NCBI RefSeq assembly: GCF_900177805.1
Contig: NZ_FXAX01000003.1
Span: 124,001 to 188,000 of the forward strand
Length of the DNA stretch: 64,000 nucleotides
Direction: 5' to 3'
Source of the DNA: Fibrobacter sp. UWB13
GTDB lineage: Bacteria; Fibrobacterota; Fibrobacteria; Fibrobacterales; Fibrobacteraceae
Below the pieces are notes generated by a model, which was given only the letters and a program-made list of their open reading frames with translations, was not told where the DNA came from and made no database searches. The position numbers and the translations under genes are program-made. Every line of letters begins with the position of its first letter. The stretch's first letter is position 1. Shown here one piece after another: positions 37,735 through 52,291 of this stretch.

Positions 37735-39153
37735 CTAAGCAGCTTTTACCGGATTCAAGAAGAGATATTCTACCGTTTCCGTTTTTATCTTTATGCCCTT
37801 TTCGTGAGCGTAGAGATAAAGCAATGCTGTACCGACACCAGCCGCGCCATCGTAAAGCCCCGTGTAGGTTTCTACAAAACCCGGCAATTTGCGAGTCCAA
37901 GCCGCAAACCAGCGACGTCCCTTGTCATCGTTCCAAGAATCACCGAGAAGCTTGTCTGCAGTGAGCTTCGCCTGTTCGATGTAGGATTCATCATTCAGTA
38001 CTTCTGCGGTCTTCACAAAATGAGCGAGGACGCCAGGGGCTCCGCAGCAAAGGCAATAACTATTCCAATAACCCGGAGTATGCTTGAGTGGAGCGCCGGT
38101 CTTGAGGATTCCCTTAGTGAGCAAGTCCACCCATTCCAAGTTTTCTTTGTTCTGAGTCACATCGAAAAGTTTGCGGAACAAAAGTGTTGTACCCACGGGA
38201 CCATGGCAAGTCGAAAGGTAATAGAAGTCATGGAAACGCCCCTTTTCCGGATTGTAGAGATACGGAATCAAAGCACCATTTTCATCGCCCTCAACGATTG
38301 CCGAAAGGAACTTGACAACTTCATTCGCCTTGTCGAGATAAGCTTTTTCCTTAGTTTCTTCGTACAAGAGAACATTCAAGAAAGCGGATCCAGCAGCACC
38401 ATGGCTAAAGTTAGGGAACACAGATTCCTTGGATTTCCAGCCAACAAGCGTCAAGTCCACGTTCTTGTAGTAAATGCCGCCTTCCTTGGCATGGACAATT
38501 CTCGTGTCTGTAAAAGCGACAACTTTTTTGGCCGCATCCAGATACTTCTTGTCTTTAGTCTTACGATAGACGTAAAGGAAGAAAAACGCGTAAGATCCAT
38601 CGGCCATCAGGTCGGCTTCGGTACTCCAGTGGAGCGTGTTACCGTCATCAACGCCTGCAGCGATGGAATCGTCTGCCGTGCGGATCAGGAATTCGCGGTA
38701 ACGCGGATTGCCCGTATGTTCGTAAAGCTGTTCCACGAAAACCGCCTGCCCCGCCGGTGACGCATAGACACTCGTTCCCCAGCCCTTGACCGGCCAAATA
38801 CCGCCGTCGTTTCCGTTTAACACATTATCAAAGAACTGTTTGCCTTCGTACGTGTTGAGGATGTATTCTGCGGCATCCTTAGCTTCTTGCAAATACACTT
38901 CGTCCTGAGTGACATCGTAAAGTTGCAAGAAGAATTGGCCAATGCCTGCCGAGCCGGCATAAAGGCCCTTAGGCGTAATCATCAAGTCGCCCTTGTACTC
39001 ATTTCCCGGTTCCGGGCTTGCTTTCCAGTACTTGCCTTGCGGCGTGACGACCTCGTTTGTCTTGAGATACTTGACAATCTGCAAGACCGCTTCGAGATAA
39101 TTTCCATTTTTGGAGGCACTAAAATCTAGATTCTGAACAAAGTTTAATTTCAT
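37735..39153 (-). CDS. LanC-like (lanthionine synthetase C family) protein
   Basis: A 472-aa alpha/alpha-barrel protein. Repeated motifs GLYAGSAGIGQFFLQLYD, FSHGAAGSAFL, STCHGPVGTTLLF, CLCCGAPGVLAHF and YDGAAGVGTALLYLY give the seven-hairpin pattern of LanC. Cys/His in CHG and CCG fit the zinc-binding and catalytic site of NisC/LanCL proteins. It could add a thiol to a dehydro-amino acid. It is the last gene of an operon with a cysteine synthase and an SDR, its start overlapping the cysK-like stop by one base (TAATG). No lanthipeptide dehydratase or transporter is beside it. Confidence 0.85.
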   Translation of the reverse strand: MKLNFVQNLDFSASKNGNYLEAVLQIVKYLKTNEVVTPQGKYWKASPEPGNEYKGDLMITPKGLYAGSAGIGQFFLQLYDVTQDEVYLQEAKDAAEYILNTYEGKQFFDNVLNGNDGGIWPVKGWGTSVYASPAGQAVFVEQLYEHTGNPRYREFLIRTADDSIAAGVDDGNTLHWSTEADLMADGSYAFFFLYVYRKTKDKKYLDAAKKVVAFTDTRIVHAKEGGIYYKNVDLTLVGWKSKESVFPNFSHGAAGSAFLNVLLYEETKEKAYLDKANEVVKFLSAIVEGDENGALIPYLYNPEKGRFHDFYYLSTCHGPVGTTLLFRKLFDVTQNKENLEWVDLLTKGILKTGAPLKHTPGYWNSYCLCCGAPGVLAHFVKTAEVLNDESYIEQAKLTADKLLGDSWNDDKGRRWFAAWTRKLPGFVETYTGLYDGAAGVGTALLYLYAHEKGIKIKTETVEYLFLNPVKAA

Positions 39154-40166
39154 TACACAGCCTCACTTTTCTTTTTTCTCTTGTACAAATCCGTGGAGAG
39201 ATACTTGTAACCATTATCGGCGTAAATCACCACAATGTTCTTGCCAGCCGCTTCGGGGCGTTTTGCAATCTGGATTGCTGCCGTAAGAGCTGCAGCCGCA
39301 GAGGTTCCAAGGAAGAGACCATCGGTCTTTGCGGTTTCCTGAGCGGTCTCGTAAGCTTCTTCGGCCTTGATGTCAATGATTTCATCAAATTCAAAACCGT
39401 TATTGCGGTTATCCTTGATAATCGTCGGCACCAAAGATTCATCAACACGGCCAAGCGGGAGCGTACCATCGACAATGTGTCCCGTAAAATCAGGATTATC
39501 CGGTCGAGAAGTCGGAGCGGCCTGCACGCCAATGATTTTCACGTTGGGATTCTTTTCGCGGAGGTAGCGACCCGTACCTACAATAGTACCTGCAGTGCCG
39601 CCCATGGCTACAAAGTAATCCACATGGCCATCCGTATCGTTCCAAATTTCAGGACCTGTTGTCTGGTAATGATATTCCTGGTTGGCGTTGTTCAGAGTCT
39701 GGCCCGTGTAATACTGGCCCTTTTCCTTGGCGAGGCGTTCCATACCCGCAATCAGATCATCGAGCACAAGGCCCTTCTTTTCAAAGTCGGCCACTTCCTT
39801 AATGTCATAGAAAGATTGCAAATCGAGACCGTAGCCTTCAAAAATCTGGACGCGTTCAATCGTCGTGCCGGGTTCAAGATAAGGGACATATTCGTAACCA
39901 AGAGCGTGACCAATACCCGCAAGCGCAATACCTGTATTTCCACTCGTCACGTCAATCAACGTATCACCTTTTTTGATAGCACCCTTCTTTTCGCCATCAC
40001 GGATAAGGGCAAGAGCAAGGCGGTCTTTCACAGAGCCAGTCGGATTCAAGAATTCGAGTTTACCGATAATGTGCGCTTTGAGGCCGTACTTAGATTCGTA
40101 ATTAGTCAGTTCAACAAGGGGAGTGTTACCAACGAGTTCAGCAATAGACTTATGAATTTTAGACAT
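39153..40166 (-). CDS. cysK: Cysteine synthase family PLP enzyme
   Basis: A 337-aa fold-type II PLP enzyme. The PLP lysine is in NPTGSVKDRLALALI. The substrate loop TSGNTGIALAGIGHALG is intact. The phosphate loop is GGTAGTIVGTGRYLR rather than GTGGT. The region usually GPSSGAA reads GTSAAAAL, so it deviates from typical CysK. It could be an O-acetylserine sulfhydrylase or a beta-synthase of another kind (cystathionine or lanthionine type). It lies between an SDR and a LanC-like gene in one operon. Gene symbol is provisional. Confidence 0.83.
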   Translation of the reverse strand: MSKIHKSIAELVGNTPLVELTNYESKYGLKAHIIGKLEFLNPTGSVKDRLALALIRDGEKKGAIKKGDTLIDVTSGNTGIALAGIGHALGYEYVPYLEPGTTIERVQIFEGYGLDLQSFYDIKEVADFEKKGLVLDDLIAGMERLAKEKGQYYTGQTLNNANQEYHYQTTGPEIWNDTDGHVDYFVAMGGTAGTIVGTGRYLREKNPNVKIIGVQAAPTSRPDNPDFTGHIVDGTLPLGRVDESLVPTIIKDNRNNGFEFDEIIDIKAEEAYETAQETAKTDGLFLGTSAAAALTAAIQIAKRPEAAGKNIVVIYADNGYKYLSTDLYKRKKKSEAV

Positions 40167-40220: not shown

Positions 40221-41015
40221 TTATTCAGCATCACCGTAAATATTGACCTTGTTGTCTTCCTTGGTGGCGGTATAACCAGCATCTACAGGGAGCTTGATGC
40301 CTGTAATTGCAGAAGCCTGATCGCTCGTGAGGAAAAATACCGCATTTGCAATTTCTTCAGGTTCAATCCAACGGTTTAAAATGCTACGATCTTCAGCGGC
40401 CTTACGGAGTTTCGGATCCGAATAGTCATGTTTGATAGCCATCTCGGTCTTGGTAAAGCCCGGAGCTACAGAGTTCACGCGAATGCCATAGCGCCCTAGA
40501 TGGAACGCTGCAGCACGTGTAAGCCCATCGACTGCGGTCTTCGAAATGCCATAAGCAAACGGAGTCCATTCTGCAAAGGAGGCGACAAACGAAGAAACGT
40601 TCACAATAGCGCCCTTGATGCCCTTTTCAATAAAGACACGACCTACATGCTGAATCAAATAAAGGCTCCCCCAGAGGTTCACATTTTCGGCCTGTTTGAT
40701 TTCTTCCGGGTCAAAGCTAAGCACGTTTTTGCGATGGCCAACAATGCCTGCGTCATTGAACAAGGCATCAATGCGTCCGTACTTCTTAACGACTTGAGCA
40801 ACGACTTCTTGACCTTGTTTGTAATTAGCGACATCCAGCTCGTAAGCGGTCACATCGGCACCTTGAGCGGTGAGCTTCGCTACTTCGCCATCGAGCTGTT
40901 CTTTTTTGATATCCGTTGCGGCAACAGCCCAACCTTCCTTGACATACTTCTTGACAGCGGCAAGGCCAATTCCCTGTGCGGCACCTGTAATAACGATAAC
41001 TTTCTTTTCACTCAT
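40221..41015 (-). CDS. Short-chain dehydrogenase/reductase
   Basis: A 264-aa classical SDR. The cofactor motif is VITGAAQGIGLA (TGxxxGxG) near residue 9. NDAGIVG replaces the usual NNAG. Catalytic Ser is in VNVSSF, and Tyr and Lys are in YGISK. The closing stretch PVDAGYTATKED resembles DGGYTA of known SDRs. Aspartate in ATDIKKEQ suggests NAD rather than NADP, by the usual rule. It is the first gene of the operon, about 250 nt downstream of the predicted promoter. Substrate unknown. Confidence 0.88.
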   Translation of the reverse strand: MSEKKVIVITGAAQGIGLAAVKKYVKEGWAVAATDIKKEQLDGEVAKLTAQGADVTAYELDVANYKQGQEVVAQVVKKYGRIDALFNDAGIVGHRKNVLSFDPEEIKQAENVNLWGSLYLIQHVGRVFIEKGIKGAIVNVSSFVASFAEWTPFAYGISKTAVDGLTRAAAFHLGRYGIRVNSVAPGFTKTEMAIKHDYSDPKLRKAAEDRSILNRWIEPEEIANAVFFLTSDQASAITGIKLPVDAGYTATKEDNKVNIYGDAE

Positions 41016-41160
41016 TCTGAAATTCCTTTTTTTGGTTTTTGCGGATACACCGGTAAAAGCGGTTTCACTCGAAACCTTGACACATGTTATCCTGATTTGT
41101 TGTGATTCCTTTGACTTCTTTTCTATAACCGTTGAAGCCCAAAGGATAATTGGCTTCTGG

Positions 41161-41208
41161 TTAGTTTATTTTCAGAATGCCTTCCGGCATTCGACAGTCG
41201 CTACACAT
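41161..41208 (-). CDS. Cys-containing micro-ORF in the operon leader (putative)
   Basis: A 15-codon ORF, MCSDCRMPEGILKIN, with a strong GAAGGAG site 5 bp before its ATG. It lies in the long leader of the SDR/CysK/LanC-like operon. It contains a CxxC pair in its first five residues and overlaps the hairpin GAATGCC-GGAA-GGCATTC. It could be a cysteine-sensing leader peptide or a tiny protein. Existence is based only on sequence. Confidence 0.45.
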   Translation of the reverse strand: MCSDCRMPEGILKIN

Positions 41209-41277
41209 ATATGCTCCTTCGAAAGCCAAGGTGAAGTGAAAGACCTTTTCAATTCCCTATCGTTCTTGTGTGTTATA

Positions 41278-41306
41278 AAATTAGAATATACCTTCTGCAA
41301 TGTCAA
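41278..41306 (-). promoter_or_regulatory. Promoter of the SDR/CysK/LanC-like operon
   Basis: On the minus strand TTGACA (41306-41301), a 17-nt spacer and TAATTT (41283-41278). The resulting leader to the SDR start is about 255 nt and holds hairpins GAATGCC/GGCATTC, GAAGCC/GGCTTC and GGTTTC-GAGT-GAAACC besides the micro-ORF. The remaining 41307-41487 is AT-rich with TAGCTATA repeats and no gene. Confidence 0.65.
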
Positions 41307-41487
41307 GGCATAGAGATATACTATTTTATCATATGTAGCTATAAGATATAGCTATAACCATAAATACCAGATTATTGAAGGGAACGCGCGCACAAATGCT
41401 ATCCTAGACTATGATATTTATTACACATTCCGTCAAAACACCTTTAAAATCTGTTCTTGAAAGGTGTAATTAATTAAATTTCCATCG

Positions 41488-42294
41488 ATGGCTTTCAAAA
41501 GTCGCATTTTTACGGGAATTCTAGTGGTATGCAGTTTGGTGTTACTTGCCAACTGCGCTTTTCCCGTACGCCCAGGATACGACAGAAAGAGCGGTACCTA
41601 CAAGCGATACAGGGTGGCCACCACAACTCCTGAACCCGTCGATACCACCGCCGTAGACCCACAAGAAGAACTGGTGCAAGAAGAAAAACTAGCAGTCGCA
41701 TCAACAACAAGCACAGACTCGATTGCTCCCGCCGTTAAAGAAAAAACAAACTCGTCGGACTCCGCATCTCATACATCAAATTTAAAAAGCAAGCCTGATT
41801 CGACGGTAGTTCGGAAAGACTCAATCGTAAAAATTGATTCCACGAAAAAGGATTCTGTCAAAAAGCAACCCGCCAAAAAAACTGAAGTTGCATCAAAAGC
41901 CAAGAAACAAACAAAGCGCGTCTCAAAGCCCACAAACCTTGAAAAATACGCCAAGGAATGGCTAGGCGCCAAGTACGTTTATGGCGCAGCAAGCAAAAAG
42001 AAGACGGACTGCTCCGGCTACGTGATGCAAGTCTATAAAGGCTTTTACGGGATATCACTCGATCATAGCGCACAACATATTTATGACGATGGACGCGGCT
42101 ATTCCATCAAGCGTACAAAATTGCAAGAAGGCGATCTCGTGTTTTTCGGGAACTTCTGGAAAATCAGCCACGTCGGTATTTACTTGAAGGGCAACCGGTT
42201 CATTCACGCCAGTACGAGTAAGGGCGTGGTGATTACCTCCATGGACGATAACTATTGGTCGTCAAAATACAAAGGCGCAAGACGATTTAAGTAG
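41488..42294 (+). CDS. NlpC/P60 family peptidoglycan endopeptidase, lipoprotein
   Basis: A 268-aa lipoprotein. The lipobox LLANC is near residue 23. A Ser/Thr/Lys-rich linker with repeated DS motifs covers about residues 45-150. The C-terminal NlpC/P60 domain spans about 155-268, with catalytic cysteine in TDCSGYVMQVYKGFYG, histidine in HVGIYLKGNRFIHAS and the DLVFFG strand. It probably cleaves peptide cross-links of peptidoglycan during cell growth. The gene is monocistronic. The 186 bases after it contain no gene, only short repeats. Confidence 0.92.
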   Translation: MAFKSRIFTGILVVCSLVLLANCAFPVRPGYDRKSGTYKRYRVATTTPEPVDTTAVDPQEELVQEEKLAVASTTSTDSIAPAVKEKTNSSDSASHTSNLKSKPDSTVVRKDSIVKIDSTKKDSVKKQPAKKTEVASKAKKQTKRVSKPTNLEKYAKEWLGAKYVYGAASKKKTDCSGYVMQVYKGFYGISLDHSAQHIYDDGRGYSIKRTKLQEGDLVFFGNFWKISHVGIYLKGNRFIHASTSKGVVITSMDDNYWSSKYKGARRFK

Positions 42295-42380
42295 GAGTTA
42301 GTTTTTAGTCAATGGCTCTTTGTCATTAGTTTTAAATGAGGCGCCGATGGCGCGATTACAATAAATAGAAACAATTAACC

Positions 42381-42410
42381 AACAACCAATGACTATTGAC
42401 TAATGACCAA
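42381..42410. repeat. Intergenic CCAATGACTATTGACTAATGACC repeat words
   Basis: AATGACTATTGACTAATGACC lies within an otherwise featureless 42295-42480 spacer; related TTAGTCAATGG words occur just upstream. The same words occur at 29.8 kb and 55.6 kb. Confidence 0.5.
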
Positions 42411-42480
42411 CTACTAAATTCCATATTCTTTTTTCCTCCTACTTCCTACTTCTAACTTCCTACTTTTTATATTTCATCTC

Positions 42481-43353
42481 ATGAAGAAAATAGCATTCCA
42501 GGGCCGTCGCGGGGCCTATAGCGAAAGTGCCGCCTACCACCTGTTCGGAAACGATATCGAAGTCGTGCCGATGGACACGTTCGAACAAATTTTCCAGGGC
42601 ATTGAAACAGGTGTCGTTGACGGTGGCGCCATCCCTATAGAGAACTCGACAGCGGGTTCCATTTACGACAACTACGACTTGCTTTACAAGTGGCGCCATC
42701 CGATTGTCGCCGAAGTCAAGTTGCAGATTGAACATACGCTCTGCGCATTGCCGGGTACAAAGCTCGAAGACCTTACCGAAGTGCTGAGCCACCCGCAGGG
42801 ACTCGCCCAGTGCAGCCGCTTTTTCGGGCAACACCCGAACATCAAGAGCACCGCTTTTTACGATACCGCAGGCAGCGCCGAAGAAATCGCGAAGCGCGGC
42901 GACAAGCACATCGGTGCAATCGCAAGCGCATACGCAGCCAAGTTCTACGGTCTTGACATTTTAAAGCAAGGGCTCGAAAATTTGCCGGGCGTGAACTTCA
43001 CGCGCTTTTACGCGATTCAGAAAACCGCAATTGAATTGCCGGACTTCAAGGCTAACGAAACAGGCAAGCCGCCTATCAAGACGACGCTCCTTTTGATGTT
43101 GAGCGATTCCAGCAAGTCTGGCGCTTTGTACGAAGCGCTCGGTTGCTTTGCCAAGCGCAAACTGAACCTCACGCGCATCGAGAGCCGTCCGCATCCGGAC
43201 CGCCCGTGGGAATACATTTTCCACCTTTCATTCGAAGGCAATCCGAAGGACCCGAACGTCGTTGAAGCGCTCAAGGAATTGCAGCAGTACACCGATTTTA
43301 TTTACCGCCTCGGAAGCTTCCGCGAAGGAACAACGGAGAAACTGAGCTATTAA
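42481..43353 (+). CDS. pheA: Prephenate dehydratase
   Basis: A 290-aa enzyme of phenylalanine synthesis. The catalytic domain begins KKIAFQGRRGAYSESAAYHL and includes GAIPIENSTAGSIYDNYDLL. AYDTAGSAEEIAKRG-like text (FYDTAGSAEEIA) holds the conserved Thr region. The C-terminal ACT domain (LLMLSDSSKSGALYEALGCF, then LTRIESRPHPDRPWEY) carries the ESRP phenylalanine-binding motif, so it should be feedback-regulated. There is no chorismate mutase domain, unlike the enterobacterial P-protein. Possible co-transcription with rph is interrupted by repeats. Confidence 0.95.
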   Translation: MKKIAFQGRRGAYSESAAYHLFGNDIEVVPMDTFEQIFQGIETGVVDGGAIPIENSTAGSIYDNYDLLYKWRHPIVAEVKLQIEHTLCALPGTKLEDLTEVLSHPQGLAQCSRFFGQHPNIKSTAFYDTAGSAEEIAKRGDKHIGAIASAYAAKFYGLDILKQGLENLPGVNFTRFYAIQKTAIELPDFKANETGKPPIKTTLLLMLSDSSKSGALYEALGCFAKRKLNLTRIESRPHPDRPWEYIFHLSFEGNPKDPNVVEALKELQQYTDFIYRLGSFREGTTEKLSY

Positions 43354-44350: not shown

Positions 44351-45967
44351 TTATTTGATAACTAGGCCCTTTTTCCCAGAGACGAACGGGTCTTCGCCCG
44401 TCGAACAGAAATTCTTTTTTTCGGAGTACTTGCCAAGCCCTCTTATATTAATTCGGCTCTTAGCATTCGCTTCACCTTGGACAGCAAAGAGAATCGATGT
44501 CATAAATGTCGTACTGACTTCACTAAACACCGTCATAAAATTATCCCAATCGGCACATGCCGTCTTTAGCTCAATGGACTTGGGCAATGTCATCTTAGGC
44601 ATTCTAGAAAGATTTCCAAATCCACCTTCTTGAGTATAAGCCAAAATAACTTCCAAATCAGTGTCCGAAGCATACGTTACACACAAGCCTCCCCAACTTG
44701 AGATATTAGCCTTAGCAGCCGGCGAATTACCTTCAGACGGATCAACAATACCCGCGACATGGAAACCAACGCCCAAATAACCTTCCTTTGAAAATTCTAA
44801 TTCACCACAAACGCCCATACAGTAATCATAAATTTCATCGCCCGTCGTATATTCAATCCCAAGCGGTTGCGGTAATTTTACAGAACCAACACCGGACATA
44901 TAATCGCCAAAGCTGAACCAATATCCTGAAGTTTCGGTACCATTATCTAATCCCGTCTCAACGGTCGTCAGAGGAGCAGCAAATCCATTCCACATTTCGC
45001 TAACTTCCTTCGGTTCAGTGCAATCTCCACGGGGACTGCTACTCGACGAAGCTCTTTGCCCAGAACTGGAACTGCGCAATACGATAAACCCTTCGTCAAC
45101 ACTACTCTTTGGCAAAACATAGGCATAGCCATCGACATCGCAAGCTCCATACGCATCGTATTTACCGACAGCGGCAATAGAGAGGTGTCCCTTTGTACCA
45201 TCGGCACCCGGCATAATGAAACGAATGCTAGACACATGTTTTGAAGCCTCGGCCGCATTCAAAGCATCCCATGTAACGCATTTTTCTACAAATTCAGTTG
45301 ATTTACCAAATTCAACCTGATAAAAGGTATCGTCGTCTGAGTAAAGCCTCAAGAGCACATCCCTATCCGCAGCGTACGTCACACAGACGCCGCCCCAATC
45401 GCTGATGTCACCATACCTTAGGGCGTACGAGACATAGGGTTCTTCAATGCCCGCAACATTGAATCCCATTCCCCCAAAAATTTCAGCAGAGGTTCCTTTT
45501 CTAAAACGATATTCAGCGCAATAACTACCACAATATTCTACAAGCGCTTCCGCACATTCATACTCAGAAGTTTCAAAACCGCACACATCCGGGCTATAAA
45601 CCTCAGTAACACCGCCATCAGGATCATCGCTAATATTATACCAAAGCCCAGCACCACGTGTACTATCAGGATCATATCCCGTATTCACCAAATAGTCACC
45701 TTTGCTAGCATTCCACAAACAAGCAGCCGTATTTTTCGGCGTTTTGGCACTACTTGAGGAATTTACAATCACGCTACTTGATGACTCGCCCCCAACGACG
45801 CTCGATGACATTCCAACACCATCACTGCTACCAAGAACGGTTTCAACAGATGAACTGCTATTGCCGTAAGCCGGGACATCAAAACTACCCGACGGGTTAT
45901 CGTCAGAGCAAGCAACAAAGCCAAACAGCAAGGCACTCGCCGCAATATCTAAAATTCTCCTAAACAC
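44351..45967 (-). CDS. Modular surface lipoprotein, two modules
   Basis: A 538-aa lipoprotein with lipobox FGFVAC near residue 21 and a Ser-rich linker (SSSSVETVLGSSDGVG onwards). Two copies of the about 190-residue module follow, joined by another Ser-rich stretch near residue 305. Each includes DISxWGGVCVTYASD-type text and a closing strand such as INIRGLGKYSEK. Pairs of cysteines (YCGSYC, CMGVC) in the centre suggest disulphides. It is probably the last gene of the run starting at the TIGR02147 gene at 53.1 kb. The module resembles carbohydrate-binding beta sandwiches; function unproven. Confidence 0.8.
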   Translation of the reverse strand: MFRRILDIAASALLFGFVACSDDNPSGSFDVPAYGNSSSSVETVLGSSDGVGMSSSVVGGESSSSVIVNSSSSAKTPKNTAACLWNASKGDYLVNTGYDPDSTRGAGLWYNISDDPDGGVTEVYSPDVCGFETSEYECAEALVEYCGSYCAEYRFRKGTSAEIFGGMGFNVAGIEEPYVSYALRYGDISDWGGVCVTYAADRDVLLRLYSDDDTFYQVEFGKSTEFVEKCVTWDALNAAEASKHVSSIRFIMPGADGTKGHLSIAAVGKYDAYGACDVDGYAYVLPKSSVDEGFIVLRSSSSGQRASSSSSPRGDCTEPKEVSEMWNGFAAPLTTVETGLDNGTETSGYWFSFGDYMSGVGSVKLPQPLGIEYTTGDEIYDYCMGVCGELEFSKEGYLGVGFHVAGIVDPSEGNSPAAKANISSWGGLCVTYASDTDLEVILAYTQEGGFGNLSRMPKMTLPKSIELKTACADWDNFMTVFSEVSTTFMTSILFAVQGEANAKSRINIRGLGKYSEKKNFCSTGEDPFVSGKKGLVIK

Positions 45968-45998
45968 AACGCACTCCTTTATTACTTAATTATAAATT

Positions 45999-47534
45999 CT
46001 ATTTTTCAAAAAAGGCTGGTGTTTCAAAAGAGCACGCGCCATTAGCGGAATATTTCCCAATACCTGCCAAATTAAATCTGCATTGTTCTTGATCTACAGT
46101 GCCCTTTATAGCAAACTGGATAGCACCAACAGCTCGCCCCATATCAGGGTCATTTGGCGCAATTTCATTCCAAGTAAAGCACTTTTCGACAAGCCCACTG
46201 GACTTTGGCAAAGCGACCTTAGGAGAGTTCTCGTAAGGAACATCTTTTACAACAAAGTTCAAGTAAGCATCCTTTTCGGAATAGTAAGTGACGCAAACAC
46301 CGCCCCAGTCTTGAATATCTTCGAAAACGTAATCGCCATCATTAAAGCCCGCAATATTAAACGAGACCCCGCCAACAGCGTATTCAGCTCCTTCCAAGGA
46401 AAAATCCATCGTTCCACAAAAACCGAGACAAGTTTCAATAAGTCCCCCATATATTTCATAGTCAAACTCCCCTGACAGCTCCACCGGGAATTCAATATGA
46501 GCATAAGCGTCACCAGGAGACGCCTCAAAATGTTCCAACCAGCCCGCGTACCTGTCACGGTCATTATAGCCTGTTTTCACATGGGTTCCGTCAACACCTT
46601 TCCACAGGCAAGTCAAGGAATCATCGTCAGGAAAATCCACATTGACGCCATCATTAGGAAATTCCCAATCAAACGAAAATTCGTCCGGTTTATAAGTACT
46701 GATTCCCCTAATATTGAAAGTTCTCTTATCGTCGTCACCTTGGCTTTTAACCTCAAACATGATAGACAGGATTTCCTTTGCGGCCTCTTCTCCCGTATAG
46801 ACCTGGCGATTGATTGAATATTCGGAATATTTCCATCTAGTTATATCAAAACGGCTCCATTCTGCACATACAGTTTTAGGCTCGTCAATCCAATACAAAT
46901 TACGAAGTGTGGGTTCAGAACCACCATGCGTCGTTCTTTCTAGAAAGCCCTCAGGATATGCCATGAACGGCCATATTTCACTATTGGAATCAATTCCATC
47001 AACATTAACTTTCAAATGGACATACATCCAATAATCAGATTCATACGTGATACAGATACCACCCCAAGACGAGACATCCGCCGTAGCGCCGTCCCTGGCT
47101 AGTTGGATTTCAAAACCAGCCCAAGGTCTATACACTGAAGTATCGGGTTCAAGCGATCCGCATAAGCCATCACAATGTTTAAAAACAGAGGCCAAAGGAG
47201 TCGATGATTTTTCGAGTTCGACAGGGAAAACAATCTTCGATTTACCCTGTTGACCAAACAAGGTATCGCCAAAGGTTCGCCAAAAGCCCGTGCTATCGTC
47301 ACCCGTATTGACCTTGTAATCTATGGCTGGGTCCCACAAGTTATAGCGGCGAGCCTTTACCGCACCACTCGAAGAAGACTCGACTACGACACCGTCACTC
47401 GAAAGAGCATCTACAGACGAGCTACTCCCATCTGCGATAGGCTCAGCAATCGGAATCGAAGGATTGTCATCGGAACAGGCGGCAACGACAAAGAACAAAA
47501 TCGAAACCACTCCCCCAAGAATTCTCCTAAACAT
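45999..47534 (-). CDS. Modular surface lipoprotein, two modules
   Basis: A 511-aa paralogue with lipobox FVVAAC near residue 20, a Ser-rich linker and two modules. It shares long near-identical stretches with the 766-aa neighbour: both contain NDPDMGRAVGAIQFAIKGT and VKDVPYENSPKV. This shows recent tandem duplication. The opening of the first module (YNLWDPAIDYKVNTGDDSTG) is also near-identical. The second half of the module includes ISSWGGICITYESDY-type text. It lies 31 bp upstream of the previous lipoprotein gene. Confidence 0.8.
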   Translation of the reverse strand: MFRRILGGVVSILFFVVAACSDDNPSIPIAEPIADGSSSSVDALSSDGVVVESSSSGAVKARRYNLWDPAIDYKVNTGDDSTGFWRTFGDTLFGQQGKSKIVFPVELEKSSTPLASVFKHCDGLCGSLEPDTSVYRPWAGFEIQLARDGATADVSSWGGICITYESDYWMYVHLKVNVDGIDSNSEIWPFMAYPEGFLERTTHGGSEPTLRNLYWIDEPKTVCAEWSRFDITRWKYSEYSINRQVYTGEEAAKEILSIMFEVKSQGDDDKRTFNIRGISTYKPDEFSFDWEFPNDGVNVDFPDDDSLTCLWKGVDGTHVKTGYNDRDRYAGWLEHFEASPGDAYAHIEFPVELSGEFDYEIYGGLIETCLGFCGTMDFSLEGAEYAVGGVSFNIAGFNDGDYVFEDIQDWGGVCVTYYSEKDAYLNFVVKDVPYENSPKVALPKSSGLVEKCFTWNEIAPNDPDMGRAVGAIQFAIKGTVDQEQCRFNLAGIGKYSANGACSFETPAFFEK

Positions 47535-47592
47535 TCAACACTCCTTCACTTTGTCTATAAATTGTAATATATAATATTTCATTAAAAAAGGT

Positions 47593-47618
47593 GATCCCGG
47601 CACAAGGCCGGGAAGACA
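47593..47618. repeat. REP-like palindrome between lipoprotein genes
   Basis: GATCCCGGC-ACAAG-GCCGGGAAGACA. The 9-bp stem could also weaken transcription between the two lipoprotein genes on either side, since this 112-bp gap is the longest in the run. Confidence 0.5.
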
Positions 47619-47646
47619 TAAAGGGAATTGCTAGCAAGCTGTCTAG

Positions 47647-49947
47647 TTATTCAGTGACGAAATGTTCTTCTATAGGGCACTTTAAACTGTAATCGTATTC
47701 CGCATAAGTCGAATACTTGCCGAGTCCGTGAATATTGATTTTTTTCCGGGTTCCTTTTGCCCCGTAAACAACAAAGTTCACAGTCGTGAGATTCTTGGGG
47801 TCAACAAGTTTTCCATCGTCTGACTTAAATTCGTCCCACGTTAAGCAACTCGTTACCACTTCAGAACTCTTGGGAAGCGTCGCCTTAGGCAACTTGGGCA
47901 ACTGACTAATATCATGAACACCAGTGCTATTCATCACGACATCGATATCAGCTTCACTAGCATAAGTCACGCAAATGCCGCCCCATAATTTATCCGCATC
48001 GCCACTAAGCAAGGTGCCATCATTGTGATCAATTCCGGCAACATAAAAACCGAATCCGGCAAAATAATCATCCTTAAATACGGCAGTTCCGCAAACGCCA
48101 CCTTCATACAGGCTGCGATGGCTCCTACCACATGAATCAGGGAACTGGACACCATCATCAATCAAATTAGCCTTTTCTTCATCAGTCAAAGGCTGAGTAA
48201 AACTTGACTTATTCTCATCACTTGTATCTTCAATTGTATACCAATGTCCAGCGTTATCATCCTCAGACCTATTACAACCTGTAAACACCGCTCCAAAGAA
48301 AGACCACAGATCCGACAGCAATATGCACTGTTCTTCAACATAAAGTTTATGGTGCTTGGTCGTATCGACACTTGAACTGCTACGGATCCATGCCGAAGAC
48401 GAGCTTTTCGGGGTGATAACAGGCGTTTCAATAGAGCACGCGCCATTAACGGAATACTCCCCTATACCCGCCAAATTAAATCTGAATTTTTCATAATCTA
48501 CAGTACCCTTTATAGCAAACTGGATTGCACCCACCGCACGCCCCATATCAGGATCATTCGGTGCGATTTCATTCCAGGTAAAGCACTTTTCGACAAGTCC
48601 ACTAGACTTTGGCAAATCGACCTTGGGAGAGTTCTCGTAAGGAACATCCTTTACAACAAAGTTCAGGAATGCATCCTTTTCAGAAAAATAAGTGACACAA
48701 ACACCACCCCAATCCTGAATATTTTCAAAAACATAATCATCAGTATAGCCTGCAATGTTAAATGAAATACCGCCAACAGCGTAATCAGAGCCATCCAGAT
48801 TAATATCCATCGTTCCACAAAAACCAGCACACTCCCAAATAACGCTTTCATACATATAAGGGTCATACTCCATCGACGGATACGCAGGGAACTCAATATG
48901 AGCATAAGAGTTAGCAGGAGACTCATCAAAAGGCACCAGCATACCCGCGTATTCATCACGGTCATTATAACCCGTTTTCACATGGGTATCGCCCAAGCCC
49001 CCTTTCCACAAACAAGTCAATGTATCATCGACAGGGAATCTATCGTAAAATTTTTCATCCGGATACTTCCAGCCTTGTGTGGCATTACTTGGATCATAAG
49101 TACTAATACCCTTAATATTAAACACCTTATTTTCGTCATCACCGCGACTTTTAATTACAAACATTATGGACTGAATTTCTTTAGCCGCCTCATCCCCAGT
49201 ATAAACTTTGCTAATCTGCGAAGAGCCACTATTTTTCGCCCAAGAGCTAACATCAAAACTGCTCCATTTCATGCATTCAGTTTGAGCTTCGTTTGTACTG
49301 AACAAATTGAAAAGCGTAGGCGCAGGAGATTCCCCAATAGTCGTTTCACTTAAATAATTAGCGGGATACGCTTCAAAAGGCTTCGTTAAGCTATTGGAAT
49401 CAAATCCATCAACTTGAACCTTTAAATAAACACTAATTGAATAATCAGATTCGTAAGTAACACAAATACCGCCCCAAGATGAGATATCCGCCGTAGAGCC
49501 TTCCTTGGCAAGCGGGATTTCAACACCCGCCCAGGGACCAATCATTAAGTAATCGGGTTCAATCGATCCGCACAAACCATCGCAATGTTTAAAGACAGAA
49601 GAAAGCGGCGTCGACGAATTTTCAAGTTCGACCGGGAAAATAATCTTCGATTCGCCCTGAAGCCCAAACAAGTTATCGCCAAAGGTTCGCCAAAAGCCCG
49701 TGCTATCGTCACCCGTATTGACCTTGTAGTCTACAGCAGGGTCCCACAAGTTGTAGCGGGCCGTTTTTACCGCACCACTCGAAGACGACTCAATTACACT
49801 ATCATCACTCGAAAGAGCTTCTATAGACGAGCAGCTATCGCCCTCCGAAATAGAGTCATCGATACCGCCCGACGGATTGTCATCGGAACAGGCGACAACA
49901 CCAAGCAGCAAGGCAGAAATCACGCCACCAAAAATTCCCCTAAACAT
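47647..49947 (-). CDS. Modular surface lipoprotein, three modules
   Basis: A 766-aa paralogue with lipobox GVVAC near residue 20 and an N-terminal Ser-rich linker. It has three modules, the second and third separated by a Ser-rich linker near residue 525 (SSSSAWIRSSSSVDT). The first two modules are near-copies of those of the 511-aa neighbour, and the third resembles that of the 538-aa protein. It therefore looks like a duplication product with an added module. Cys pairs (CDGLC, CAGFC) recur in each module. Presumed cell surface; ligand unknown. Confidence 0.8.
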   Translation of the reverse strand: MFRGIFGGVISALLLGVVACSDDNPSGGIDDSISEGDSCSSIEALSSDDSVIESSSSGAVKTARYNLWDPAVDYKVNTGDDSTGFWRTFGDNLFGLQGESKIIFPVELENSSTPLSSVFKHCDGLCGSIEPDYLMIGPWAGVEIPLAKEGSTADISSWGGICVTYESDYSISVYLKVQVDGFDSNSLTKPFEAYPANYLSETTIGESPAPTLFNLFSTNEAQTECMKWSSFDVSSWAKNSGSSQISKVYTGDEAAKEIQSIMFVIKSRGDDENKVFNIKGISTYDPSNATQGWKYPDEKFYDRFPVDDTLTCLWKGGLGDTHVKTGYNDRDEYAGMLVPFDESPANSYAHIEFPAYPSMEYDPYMYESVIWECAGFCGTMDINLDGSDYAVGGISFNIAGYTDDYVFENIQDWGGVCVTYFSEKDAFLNFVVKDVPYENSPKVDLPKSSGLVEKCFTWNEIAPNDPDMGRAVGAIQFAIKGTVDYEKFRFNLAGIGEYSVNGACSIETPVITPKSSSSAWIRSSSSVDTTKHHKLYVEEQCILLSDLWSFFGAVFTGCNRSEDDNAGHWYTIEDTSDENKSSFTQPLTDEEKANLIDDGVQFPDSCGRSHRSLYEGGVCGTAVFKDDYFAGFGFYVAGIDHNDGTLLSGDADKLWGGICVTYASEADIDVVMNSTGVHDISQLPKLPKATLPKSSEVVTSCLTWDEFKSDDGKLVDPKNLTTVNFVVYGAKGTRKKINIHGLGKYSTYAEYDYSLKCPIEEHFVTE

Positions 49948-49978
49948 ACAACACTCCTTTATTTTGTTTATACTCTAT

Positions 49979-52291
49979 TTAAAGAACATAAAGAACAGCT
50001 GGTTCTTGACATTTTAAATAGGATGTGCCATCCAGTTCTTGATACGGGGCAATTCCCAAAATATTGAACGAACTGCTGGCATTATTCTTGGCATAATCAT
50101 AGAACAAAATCGACGATATCTTAGAAGGATCGATAGGTACCCTTGTTTCGCTGTCAACAAATTCATTCCAGGATTTACATTCAATCTTGGCATAACCATC
50201 TGTCTGTGGCAACGTCACGCCCGGCAATTTAGATACATTTGCAAAATCATTTTGCTCTGCATCATTTATAGCAATATGCAAATCATATTCCGATGCATAA
50301 ACAACACACATGCCGCCCCAATATTTGAGACTTTTAGCCTGCAACTTGCCATTTTCATCTTTATCAGCAATGTTAAATCCGAAGCCAGCATTTCCTGCAC
50401 CTTTATGTATGACACAAAGTCCCTGACAGCGGTTTAGAACAGGTTGCAACGAATCCTGACCTAACTCGCTATTCACTTGTACAGGATAAGTCTCATTGAC
50501 TTCGTCGTTGTCCTTGAATGCATACCAATGTCCACCATCACCTGTCGCTGTCGAATACCCCGTTTTCACACTCAAATAACCATCCGGACCATACCAAACT
50601 GGACTAAGATTTTTGAAAGAGCACTCATCTTTATACACCTTGCTACTGCTGGAACTGCGCGGGGTTCGACTCGAAGAACTTGTCGGCGTGTAAGAGGTTT
50701 TGGGGATGGAGCAAGCCCCATTAGCAGAATATTTTCCAATACCCGCTATATTAAACTGGTTCCTATCACCATCTTCATAGCTCTTTACAATAAACTGAAC
50801 CGAGCTTACCGCAGACCCCATATTAGGATCATTCGGGGCAAGGTCACTCCAAGTAAAGCATTTTTCTACAAGAGCCCCCGTAGCAGGGAGAGATGCTTTC
50901 GGAGATTCTTCATACGGAACGCCTTTTACAACAACATTTAGGTAAGCATCCTTTTCGGAATAATAAGTGATGCAAATGCCACCCCAATCCTTGATATCGG
51001 CAAATTTAGGCTTACCATAGCAAGTATTGCCTTCACAAGATGTCAACGAATCTTCAGCAATATTGAAGCCTACACCAGAAGCGGCATAATCGGCTTTTTC
51101 CAAAGTAAACTCCATCGTTCCACAAAAGCCTTTACATACATAGATAATAGGATTATACATATAGGGTTCATATTCCATCCCCCTATACGTAGGGAATTCT
51201 ATTCTTGTATACGCCCCCTCGGGAGAAACATCGAAATCATACAGCATCCCGACAAATTCATCCCGATCATTATAGCCCGTATTTACAATGCCAGACCTAT
51301 TCAAGCCCTTCCACAGGCAGGTCAAGGAATCGTCGTTTGTAGTAACCAGGCCTAAATCCGGTTCATTCGTACCGTCATCGCGATTCCACTGCGGAAGATT
51401 TTCATCGTAAGTACTGATACCAAAGATATTGAATTCTCCCGAGCCATCGGAATTACCCATAAATACAAAGTTGATTGCCTTGACTTCTTTAGCAGCCTCT
51501 TCGCCTGAATAGATCTTGCTCAATTTTGCCTTATTGTATTCCGCCCAGCTAGACACCTTAAAGTCGCTCCATTTGGCACAACGCGTAATGGCTTCATCAG
51601 AACCAAGCATATTCATAAGCGTTGGAGTATTCGTTAAAGTTTTCGGAAGCGTAATGCCCGGATAGGCCATAAACGGAGACGCATAGGCAATCGTATCTAT
51701 GCCGCCGACATCCACATTGAGATAGACACTCACCGGGTATTCAGAGGCATACGTCACACAGATACCGCCCCACGCGGAGATATCCACCGTCGAATTTTCT
51801 TCGGCAAGCGTAAAGCCAATACCCGCCCAAGGCTTTGATTCCATGCTTTGCAACTCAGCGCTTCCGCATACGCCTCCACAATAATCAATAACAGGATCTA
51901 AATTACTTTCAGAATATTCATTGCCCATTTCCACAGGCCAAGTGATGGTTGACCGGCCCCCTTCCGCATCATCGCTAAAACTGAACCAATATCCCGTATT
52001 TTCATTACCAGTATTGATTTTGTAGTCCGTTTTGCCATTCCACACATCAAACTTCGGAACAGCCTCTACACTGCTAGAGGACTGGACTGCAGATGAACTT
52101 TCAACAGCAGAAGAGCCGCCCACAACAGACGAACTGCTACCGTCATAAACAGACGAGCTGCTTTCACCATAGGCAATCGGATTACCATCTTCCGTGACAC
52201 CCGCCGTATTGTCGTCCGAGCACGCCATAAAGCCGAACGCGAACGCACATGCAGAAACGCATGCCGATATGTTAAGAAGATTCTTAAGCAT
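49979..52291 (-). CDS. Modular surface lipoprotein coupled to TIGR02147 gene, three modules
   Basis: A 770-aa lipoprotein, lipobox FGFMAC near residue 23, followed by a long Ser-rich linker (SSSSVYDGSSSSVVGGSSAV). Three modules follow, each with GICVTYASE or GICITYYSEKD-type text and Cys-x-x-x-Cys pairs (CGGVC, CKGFC, CQGLC). The start ATG overlaps the stop of the TIGR02147 gene by 8 bp (ATGCTTAA). The ribosome binding site GGAGGAGGG lies in the regulator's coding sequence. This is the head lipoprotein of the run of four. Confidence 0.83.
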   Translation of the reverse strand: MLKNLLNISACVSACAFAFGFMACSDDNTAGVTEDGNPIAYGESSSSVYDGSSSSVVGGSSAVESSSAVQSSSSVEAVPKFDVWNGKTDYKINTGNENTGYWFSFSDDAEGGRSTITWPVEMGNEYSESNLDPVIDYCGGVCGSAELQSMESKPWAGIGFTLAEENSTVDISAWGGICVTYASEYPVSVYLNVDVGGIDTIAYASPFMAYPGITLPKTLTNTPTLMNMLGSDEAITRCAKWSDFKVSSWAEYNKAKLSKIYSGEEAAKEVKAINFVFMGNSDGSGEFNIFGISTYDENLPQWNRDDGTNEPDLGLVTTNDDSLTCLWKGLNRSGIVNTGYNDRDEFVGMLYDFDVSPEGAYTRIEFPTYRGMEYEPYMYNPIIYVCKGFCGTMEFTLEKADYAASGVGFNIAEDSLTSCEGNTCYGKPKFADIKDWGGICITYYSEKDAYLNVVVKGVPYEESPKASLPATGALVEKCFTWSDLAPNDPNMGSAVSSVQFIVKSYEDGDRNQFNIAGIGKYSANGACSIPKTSYTPTSSSSRTPRSSSSSKVYKDECSFKNLSPVWYGPDGYLSVKTGYSTATGDGGHWYAFKDNDEVNETYPVQVNSELGQDSLQPVLNRCQGLCVIHKGAGNAGFGFNIADKDENGKLQAKSLKYWGGMCVVYASEYDLHIAINDAEQNDFANVSKLPGVTLPQTDGYAKIECKSWNEFVDSETRVPIDPSKISSILFYDYAKNNASSSFNILGIAPYQELDGTSYLKCQEPAVLYVL

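Follow-up and report, generated by a model that had tools for sequence, protein, structure and literature searches.

The window analysed here is a stretch of 64,000 nucleotides from Fibrobacter sp. UWB13, and it contains a 15-codon micro-ORF upstream of a sulfur-amino-acid operon, all on the minus strand. The first gene of the operon (40221..41015) encodes an SDR-family dehydrogenase and is preceded by a Shine-Dalgarno sequence, AAAGGA, at 41024..41029. It is followed by the gene for a CysK/CysM-like pyridoxal-phosphate enzyme (39153..40166), which matches TIGR01136 with an E value of 1.5e-78 at a score under the curated cut-off of that family, and by the gene for a LanC-like protein (37735..39153; PF05147, E 1.3e-27). 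Elsewhere in the window, at 44351-52291 on the same strand, four adjacent large ORFs look like a tandem family, having similar starts of lipoprotein type and linkers rich in serine.

The micro-ORF, MCSDCRMPEGILKIN, occupies 41208-41161 and reads ATG TGT AGC GAC TGT CGA ATG CCG GAA GGC ATT CTG AAA ATA AAC TAA, from the ATG at 41208 to the TAA at 41163-41161. Its Shine-Dalgarno sequence, GAAGGAG (41220-41214), noted as strong in a first-pass annotation of this DNA, lies 5 nt before the ATG. A promoter can be read from the sequence further upstream, with TTGACA at 41306-41301 and TAATTT at 41283-41278 separated by 17 nt, implying that the RNA starts at about 41270 and that a leader of about 255 nt precedes the SDR-cysK-LanC-like operon. 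The first-pass annotation had proposed a leader of this length from a good promoter; the leader and the position of the promoter are kept in the homologues, but the -10 box is weak and the promoter has no entry in the sigma-70 scan. Just 3' of the -10 box, the segment 41256..41272 may, in our reading, be a degenerate copy of a putative operator-like palindrome that relatives carry as CCTACAAGATTGATAGG.

The leader RNA has the potential to form several stems, beginning with a 5' stem-loop at 41230..41257. Inside the micro-ORF, directly after its conserved Cys codon (TGT, codon 5, at 41196-41194), GAATGCC (41192-41186) can pair with GGCATTC (41181-41175) as the hairpin s2:s3, spanning 41175..41192. 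A second hairpin pairs GAAGCC (41157-41152) with GGCTTC (41139-41134); both had been noted previously and both are present in the sequence. In a longer helix, H45 (41126..41163), UAACC..GAAGCC at 41163-41152 pairs with GGCUUC..GGUUA at 41139-41126, such that the 5' arm starts with the UAA that ends the micro-ORF and the loop contains UCCUUU. In the helix H56 (41107..41146), UCCUUU-GGGCUUC at 41146-41134 pairs with GAAGUC-AAAGGA at 41118-41107. The two helices are mutually exclusive because the arm 41139-41134 is common to both. The segment UCCUUU (41146-41141) is also complementary to the Shine-Dalgarno sequence of the SDR gene, and we propose this as a candidate contact.

The leader is far commoner than the SDR-cysK-LanC-like operon that it precedes in the window. 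Its 23-nt core, with at most three mismatches, occurs in 33 of 80 genomes of the genus, against 1 of 80 for a reversed control pattern, and a 151-nt leader query also finds it in three genomes of a second genus (G142, G143 and G144) and matches the edge of a contig in G150. The flanking sequence is similar too, with 73-82% identity over about 115 nt in most of the more distant copies. The SDR gene is present in 5 and the LanC-like protein in 9 of the 80 genus genomes (the latter judged at E 1e-20), and 6 genomes encode CysK-like enzymes closely related to that of the window, with 82-100% identity. Of 46 leaders first gathered, 39 were aligned; those dropped have no core ORF (G053, G010, G052, G152 and G064b), lie at a contig edge (G150) or have lost the ORF by deletion (G070a, one of two copies in G070, each of which carries a deletion). 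Behind the 39 aligned leaders stand metY in 33 cases, identified by MTTQNKLHFETLQ.HVGQE, the SDR gene in 4 and cysK in 2. Two copies are found in G011, one before SDR and one before cysK-LanC. One SDR copy in G038 keeps the promoter region with the ORF absent, and G008 has an SDR-cysK-LanC operon without the micro-ORF.

Some neighbouring observations concern the same genes. In three draft genomes (G030, G031 and G032) the contigs L074, L075 and L076 have the cysK or LanC-like gene at their start, which may reflect a break in the assembly at a repeated leader. A further LanC-like protein of G011, with 44% identity, is encoded at L064 6521-10398 beside genes that we take to be aminotransferase-like and cystathionine-synthase-like, indicating that LanC-like proteins here accompany sulfur-amino-acid enzymes. 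Beyond the phylum, the 23-nt pattern matches 10 stretches in the wider genome contigs, where we estimate a chance expectation of 7-8, and among these only L054 and L058 appear related. L058 (6564, minus strand) has a near-unchanged leader with an SDR gene on a contig from a horse faeces MAG that is labelled Bacteroidales and is probably mis-binned. Two matches were rejected: L059 (MCSDCSMPACKV, from a Clostridiales MAG), which has a good Shine-Dalgarno sequence but an unrelated context, and a match in G122 that lies antisense within another frame.

Is the micro-ORF maintained as a reading frame? Its ATG, ribosome site, frame and stop codon, the last as TAG or TAA, are kept in all 39 leaders, and the most conserved part of the leader is the stretch comprising the Shine-Dalgarno sequence, the ATG and the ORF. 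The 17 distinct ORF sequences encode 11 peptides, in which C-R-M-P at positions 5-8 and G at position 10 are invariant. None of the 17 has an internal stop in frame, compared with 15/17 and 17/17 in the other two frames, and the ORF of G143 and G144 contains an insertion of exactly two codons (MMCDSDCRMPKGILKFN). Conservation of the frame and of the Cys codons, with synonymous change in the ORF, had been named in the first-pass annotation as the check on its proposal. The frame is conserved, and the TGT of codon 5 is likewise kept in every leader, contrary to the refuting case that the annotation had set out. Of 21 single-step codon pairs, 7 are synonymous where a fraction of 0.18 would be expected, an excess so slight that codon statistics alone are no proof of translation. 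The two cysteines noted in the first five codons are real at this locus, but the first is no feature of the family, being at position 2 in 6 of the 39 leaders and differently placed in G143 and G144; the second is the only conserved Cys. Apart from the start, a single Cys codon and a single Met codon of the ORF are thus invariant, and a run of such codons is absent. Constraint on the RNA could also be a cause of the invariant core.

Folding with RNAalifold gives the 5' stem, the in-ORF hairpin, H45 and a terminal stem; H56, with its one arm in common with H45, was recognised by eye. Two alignments were used: A1, with 32 of the 39 leaders (all except G070b, G038, G011a, G011b, the horse-derived L058, G142 and G078), and A2, with 28 distinct segments, leaving out G142, which is without the UCCUU/AAGGA arms, and four G038/G011-type leaders; the G038 and G011 leaders diverge 3' of the ORF. 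In the 28 sequences, H45 is paired in 98.0% of 305 cells, with 5 cells changed on both sides, and the core of H56 (its shared-arm half) in 97.9% of 140 cells, with 4 such changes. Both helices exceed all 500 shuffles (0/500 for each) in percentage paired, two-side-changed cells and covariation score, in a test whose result can be inflated by relatedness among the sequences, and slid controls are paired in at most 64% (H45) and 69% (H56). Counted as pairs with two-sided changes, there are 2 in H45 and 1 in H56, which is not above the shuffles. The outer half of H56 (UCCUU with AAGGA), where the alignment slips, was read per sequence and stands outside these tool counts. The strongest point for the predicted alternative helices is that four sequences, G143, G144, G019 and G021, alter all three arms jointly, from AAGCC, GGCUU and AAGCC to GAGCC, GGCUC and GAGC.

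Covariation also marks the 5' stem, in which 5 pairs are changed on both sides in the family (0/500 shuffles). The in-ORF hairpin s2:s3 is 100% paired in the 32 sequences of A1, but 6 of its 7 pairs never vary and thus offer no covariation evidence for it. A further candidate, pairing of GCATTCG before the Shine-Dalgarno sequence with CGAATGC, was rejected, one pair being broken in the window (GCTTTCG) while the rest barely varies.

The H45 and H56 states compete in free folding. When each is forced, their energies differ by a mean of 0.37 kcal/mol (sd 2.69) over 29 leaders, 22 of which have the two states within 3 kcal/mol; this set is without the G038/G011-type leaders, G142 and G070b, and also without G039, G078, G019 and G021, whose arms are unfit for the fixed pairs. 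The segment UCCUU is unpaired at 0.8-1.0 in the forced H45 state and at 0.0-0.2 in the H56 state. A modelled ribosome at the ORF stop masks an arm of H45, with H56 remaining in 36 of 38 models, whereas a modelled stall at the Cys codon switches only part of the family, H45 remaining the favoured state in 13 of 34 leaders, a set without the four of G038/G011 type. For the window's leader, the start codon of the SDR gene is predicted to be mostly paired in the H45 state (unpaired probability 0.03) and mostly open in H56 (0.78), and in this model H56 would fit as the open state. This shift is absent from most metY leaders, and nested folding makes pairing of the Shine-Dalgarno sequence itself almost equal in the two states.

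Leader ORFs of other kinds precede further sulfur genes in the genus. A second metY gene, with cysK next to it in several genomes, has other short leader ORFs upstream, MRCRMCNQAEGGRA in the window's genome and, among those elsewhere, MKYRMCTLSEARGA, MSCRMCNRTEPSWKSQA and MFSVFYFEFLVRHNFRYGRMC; in G001 the stop is lost and the peptide is longer. The start could be located at 48 of 50 metY loci, and short ORFs with R-M-[CP] are found upstream of 26 of these (4 being the window's leader type), against a shuffle mean of 0.08, and with R-M-C upstream of 22, against 0.04. A search of 167 genomes with the G024 peptide gave convincing matches only in G024 and G151.

The gene metB is present in 54 of 111 genomes of the family, and for 42 of the 43 metB genes whose start was located the upstream region contains an ORF with three or more Cys codons, compared with 1.22 in shuffles (48 loci were examined, the other five being those of G022, G142, G148, G024 and G061). 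One such ORF is MTQNLMNMCCCCWGRCRTGD and that in the window's own genome is MNFPFNSLNFACCCRCRTGI; loci of this type are L253 (G000:C1:2168300-2169100), L215-L244, L254 and L257-L272. A perfect terminator stem with a T-run is present in 41 of the 42 Cys-run leaders and a folded stem in one, and the Cys codons in those 41 comprise 158 TGT and 24 TGC. The metB leaders are apparently cysteine attenuators. An antiterminator formed between the ORF tail and a terminator arm was rejected, with 3 of 41 against 53 of 820 shuffled tails, which is not above the control, and the claim for metB is therefore limited to the Cys-run ORF and the terminator. In G052, the gene for a 280-residue protein that is presumably methyltransferase-like (L162, minus strand, gene start ~4597) is likewise preceded by a leader ORF, MSIQFARFCCSSDRC, together with a strong terminator hairpin.

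Many of these sulfur-gene promoters contain a palindrome-like sequence, CCTAY-N7-RTAGG, suggesting that a transcription factor probably acts on them as well; in the window's genome, G000, the pattern has 8 matches, equal to the 8 for its reversed control. Operator-like sites there (L247, L249 and L252) lie before what we take to be metY-cysK, a gene of LysR type and, with the start MSENYKYGFVTDIENEAFEK, a sufB-like gene.

We think it probable, with moderate confidence, that the micro-ORF encodes a leader peptide through which a ribosome-dependent attenuator controls sulfur-amino-acid genes. Comparison of the homologues shows a short ORF between promoter and biosynthetic operon that is conserved in its ribosome site, start, frame and stop, together with two predicted helices, kept, mutually exclusive and of near-equal energy, which, from the comparison and the modelling, could be selected by the position of the ribosome. 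The micro-ORF would be translated, and the progress of the ribosome, whether it halts at the conserved Cys codon, and perhaps at the CGA or Met codon too, or reaches the stop, would pick H45 or H56. Because no intrinsic terminator was found in 40500-42500, the output is probably ribosome access to the next gene, with the anti-Shine-Dalgarno segment UCCUU left free in the H45 loop and paired within H56. A candidate direction is that cysteine starvation would cause the stall and leave s3 free to pair with s4, whereupon H56 would form and the operon be expressed; this would make sense physiologically. The sensor would most simply be the conserved Cys codon, by analogy with the metB leaders, and Met is a candidate co-sensor.

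Attenuation through a Cys-codon leader peptide had been suggested in the first-pass annotation, and it is the best-supported class, given the conserved frame and Cys codon and the metB Cys-run leaders with terminators in the same genus. Its simple form does not hold, however: one Cys codon is conserved, no intrinsic terminator was found, and the switch would consist of two alternative helices further 3'. Several observations count against the attenuator reading as a whole: the single conserved Cys codon, where classical attenuators carry runs, the small synonymous excess, the incomplete response to a modelled Cys stall, the near-constant pairing of the Shine-Dalgarno sequence, the low number of pairs with two-sided changes, the missing arms in G142 and the divergence of the G038/G011 leaders, the SDR loci of G038 and G008 that have no micro-ORF, and the failure to find a terminator. 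A wider reading, which we offer only tentatively, is of a set of leader peptides in two forms, a Cys-run transcriptional form at metB and a C-R-M-P or R-M-C form at metY and cysK that would read Cys and Met jointly through a two-state RNA showing or hiding an anti-Shine-Dalgarno sequence. R-M-C would then be a nascent-chain code across unlike leaders, and the leader would move like a cassette, before metY in most species and before SDR-cysK-LanC in the window's lineage, with two copies in G011.

The same leaders could be read in other ways. In a nascent-peptide arrest, the C-R-M-P or R-M-C motif would respond to a small molecule such as methionine, SAM, cysteine or O-acetylhomoserine by stalling the ribosome, and this event, not tRNA charging, would set the RNA switch. 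The invariance of C-R-M-P in the 39 leaders suits such a motif, and R-M is common to peptides of unlike leaders that use different codons (CGA ATG TGT in G024, CGG ATG TGC in G151), but much of this sharing is shared DNA too (TGTCGAATG). Moreover, some metY leaders have RMR or are without such an ORF (22 of 48 are without R-M-[CP]), and the plain Cys runs at metB point to tRNA charging, making arrest an unlikely explanation. We judge it improbable that the leader is instead a riboswitch-like RNA, binding a metabolite or protein, in whose conserved core the open frame is incidental. Strong nucleotide conservation, conserved stems and the small synonymous excess would all be expected of such an RNA. 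Against it, an Rfam scan of the window returned only two tRNAs at threshold and no riboswitch or other family, the conservation peak coincides with the translation signals and the ORF, the one insertion is of two whole codons, the stop is kept as either TAG or TAA, and paralogous operons with unlike leaders again have short Cys/Met ORFs.

The first-pass annotation had also raised the possibility that the peptide is a RiPP-like precursor, the substrate of the operon's LanC-like protein. The proximity of the two in the window and the LanC-like domain prompt this idea, but only G000, G001, G011 and G038 among the 33 leader-bearing genus genomes have a LanC-like gene, the other 29 being without one at E 1e-20. 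Most leaders stand before metY, the micro-ORF is missing from the SDR-cysK-LanC operon of G008, and the 15-residue peptide is without a leader/core layout; we regard this role as extremely improbable. The evidence is a better fit to a leader-peptide attenuator than to a riboswitch or a peptide substrate.

To our knowledge, cysteine leader-peptide attenuators are known from few bacterial groups. Comparative evidence now points to a whole set of them in the Fibrobacter family, suggesting a way in which these bacteria match sulfur-amino-acid synthesis to supply. The metY/cysK form, with one conserved Cys codon, an R-M motif and a two-state RNA, provides a testable case of a 15-codon ORF setting an RNA switch. 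In the literature searched, which covered few subscription papers, we found no report of leader-peptide control of sulfur genes in Fibrobacter, and the accessible part of an attenuator survey (PMC2965389) does not mention Fibrobacter. On this literature the kind of control is known, and the phylum, genes and peptide motif appear new.

How does the leader compare with known systems? Cysteine leader ORFs with Cys runs near the stop are described for Mycobacterium and other Actinobacteria (Seliverstov et al. 2005, PMC1262725), and leaderless Cys ORFs are named in the title of Canestrari et al. 2020, as cited in PMC9094748. As far as the available parts of these sources describe them, the likeness lies in a short Cys-codon ORF before sulfur genes with no obvious intrinsic terminator. 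Here, in contrast to the leaderless, poly-Cys mycobacterial class, the ORF has its own Shine-Dalgarno sequence in a long leader and a single conserved Cys codon, set in C-R-M-P; predicted helices cover its stop codon, the phylum is another one and metY is the usual target. Cys codons within a structured leader are likewise a feature of the uORFC-8-2 motif (PMC8632094), which is a candidate attenuator before cysS that combines tandem Cys codons with an intrinsic terminator. The metB leaders resemble it, whereas the window's leader has neither tandem Cys codons nor a terminator. Finally, the metBA genes of Campylobacter jejuni are preceded by MetL, a putative leader peptide containing three Met codons (PMC3847290). 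It resembles the Fibrobacter leader in its position before methionine genes, and is distinguished by Met codons as its sensor and by a short terminated RNA.
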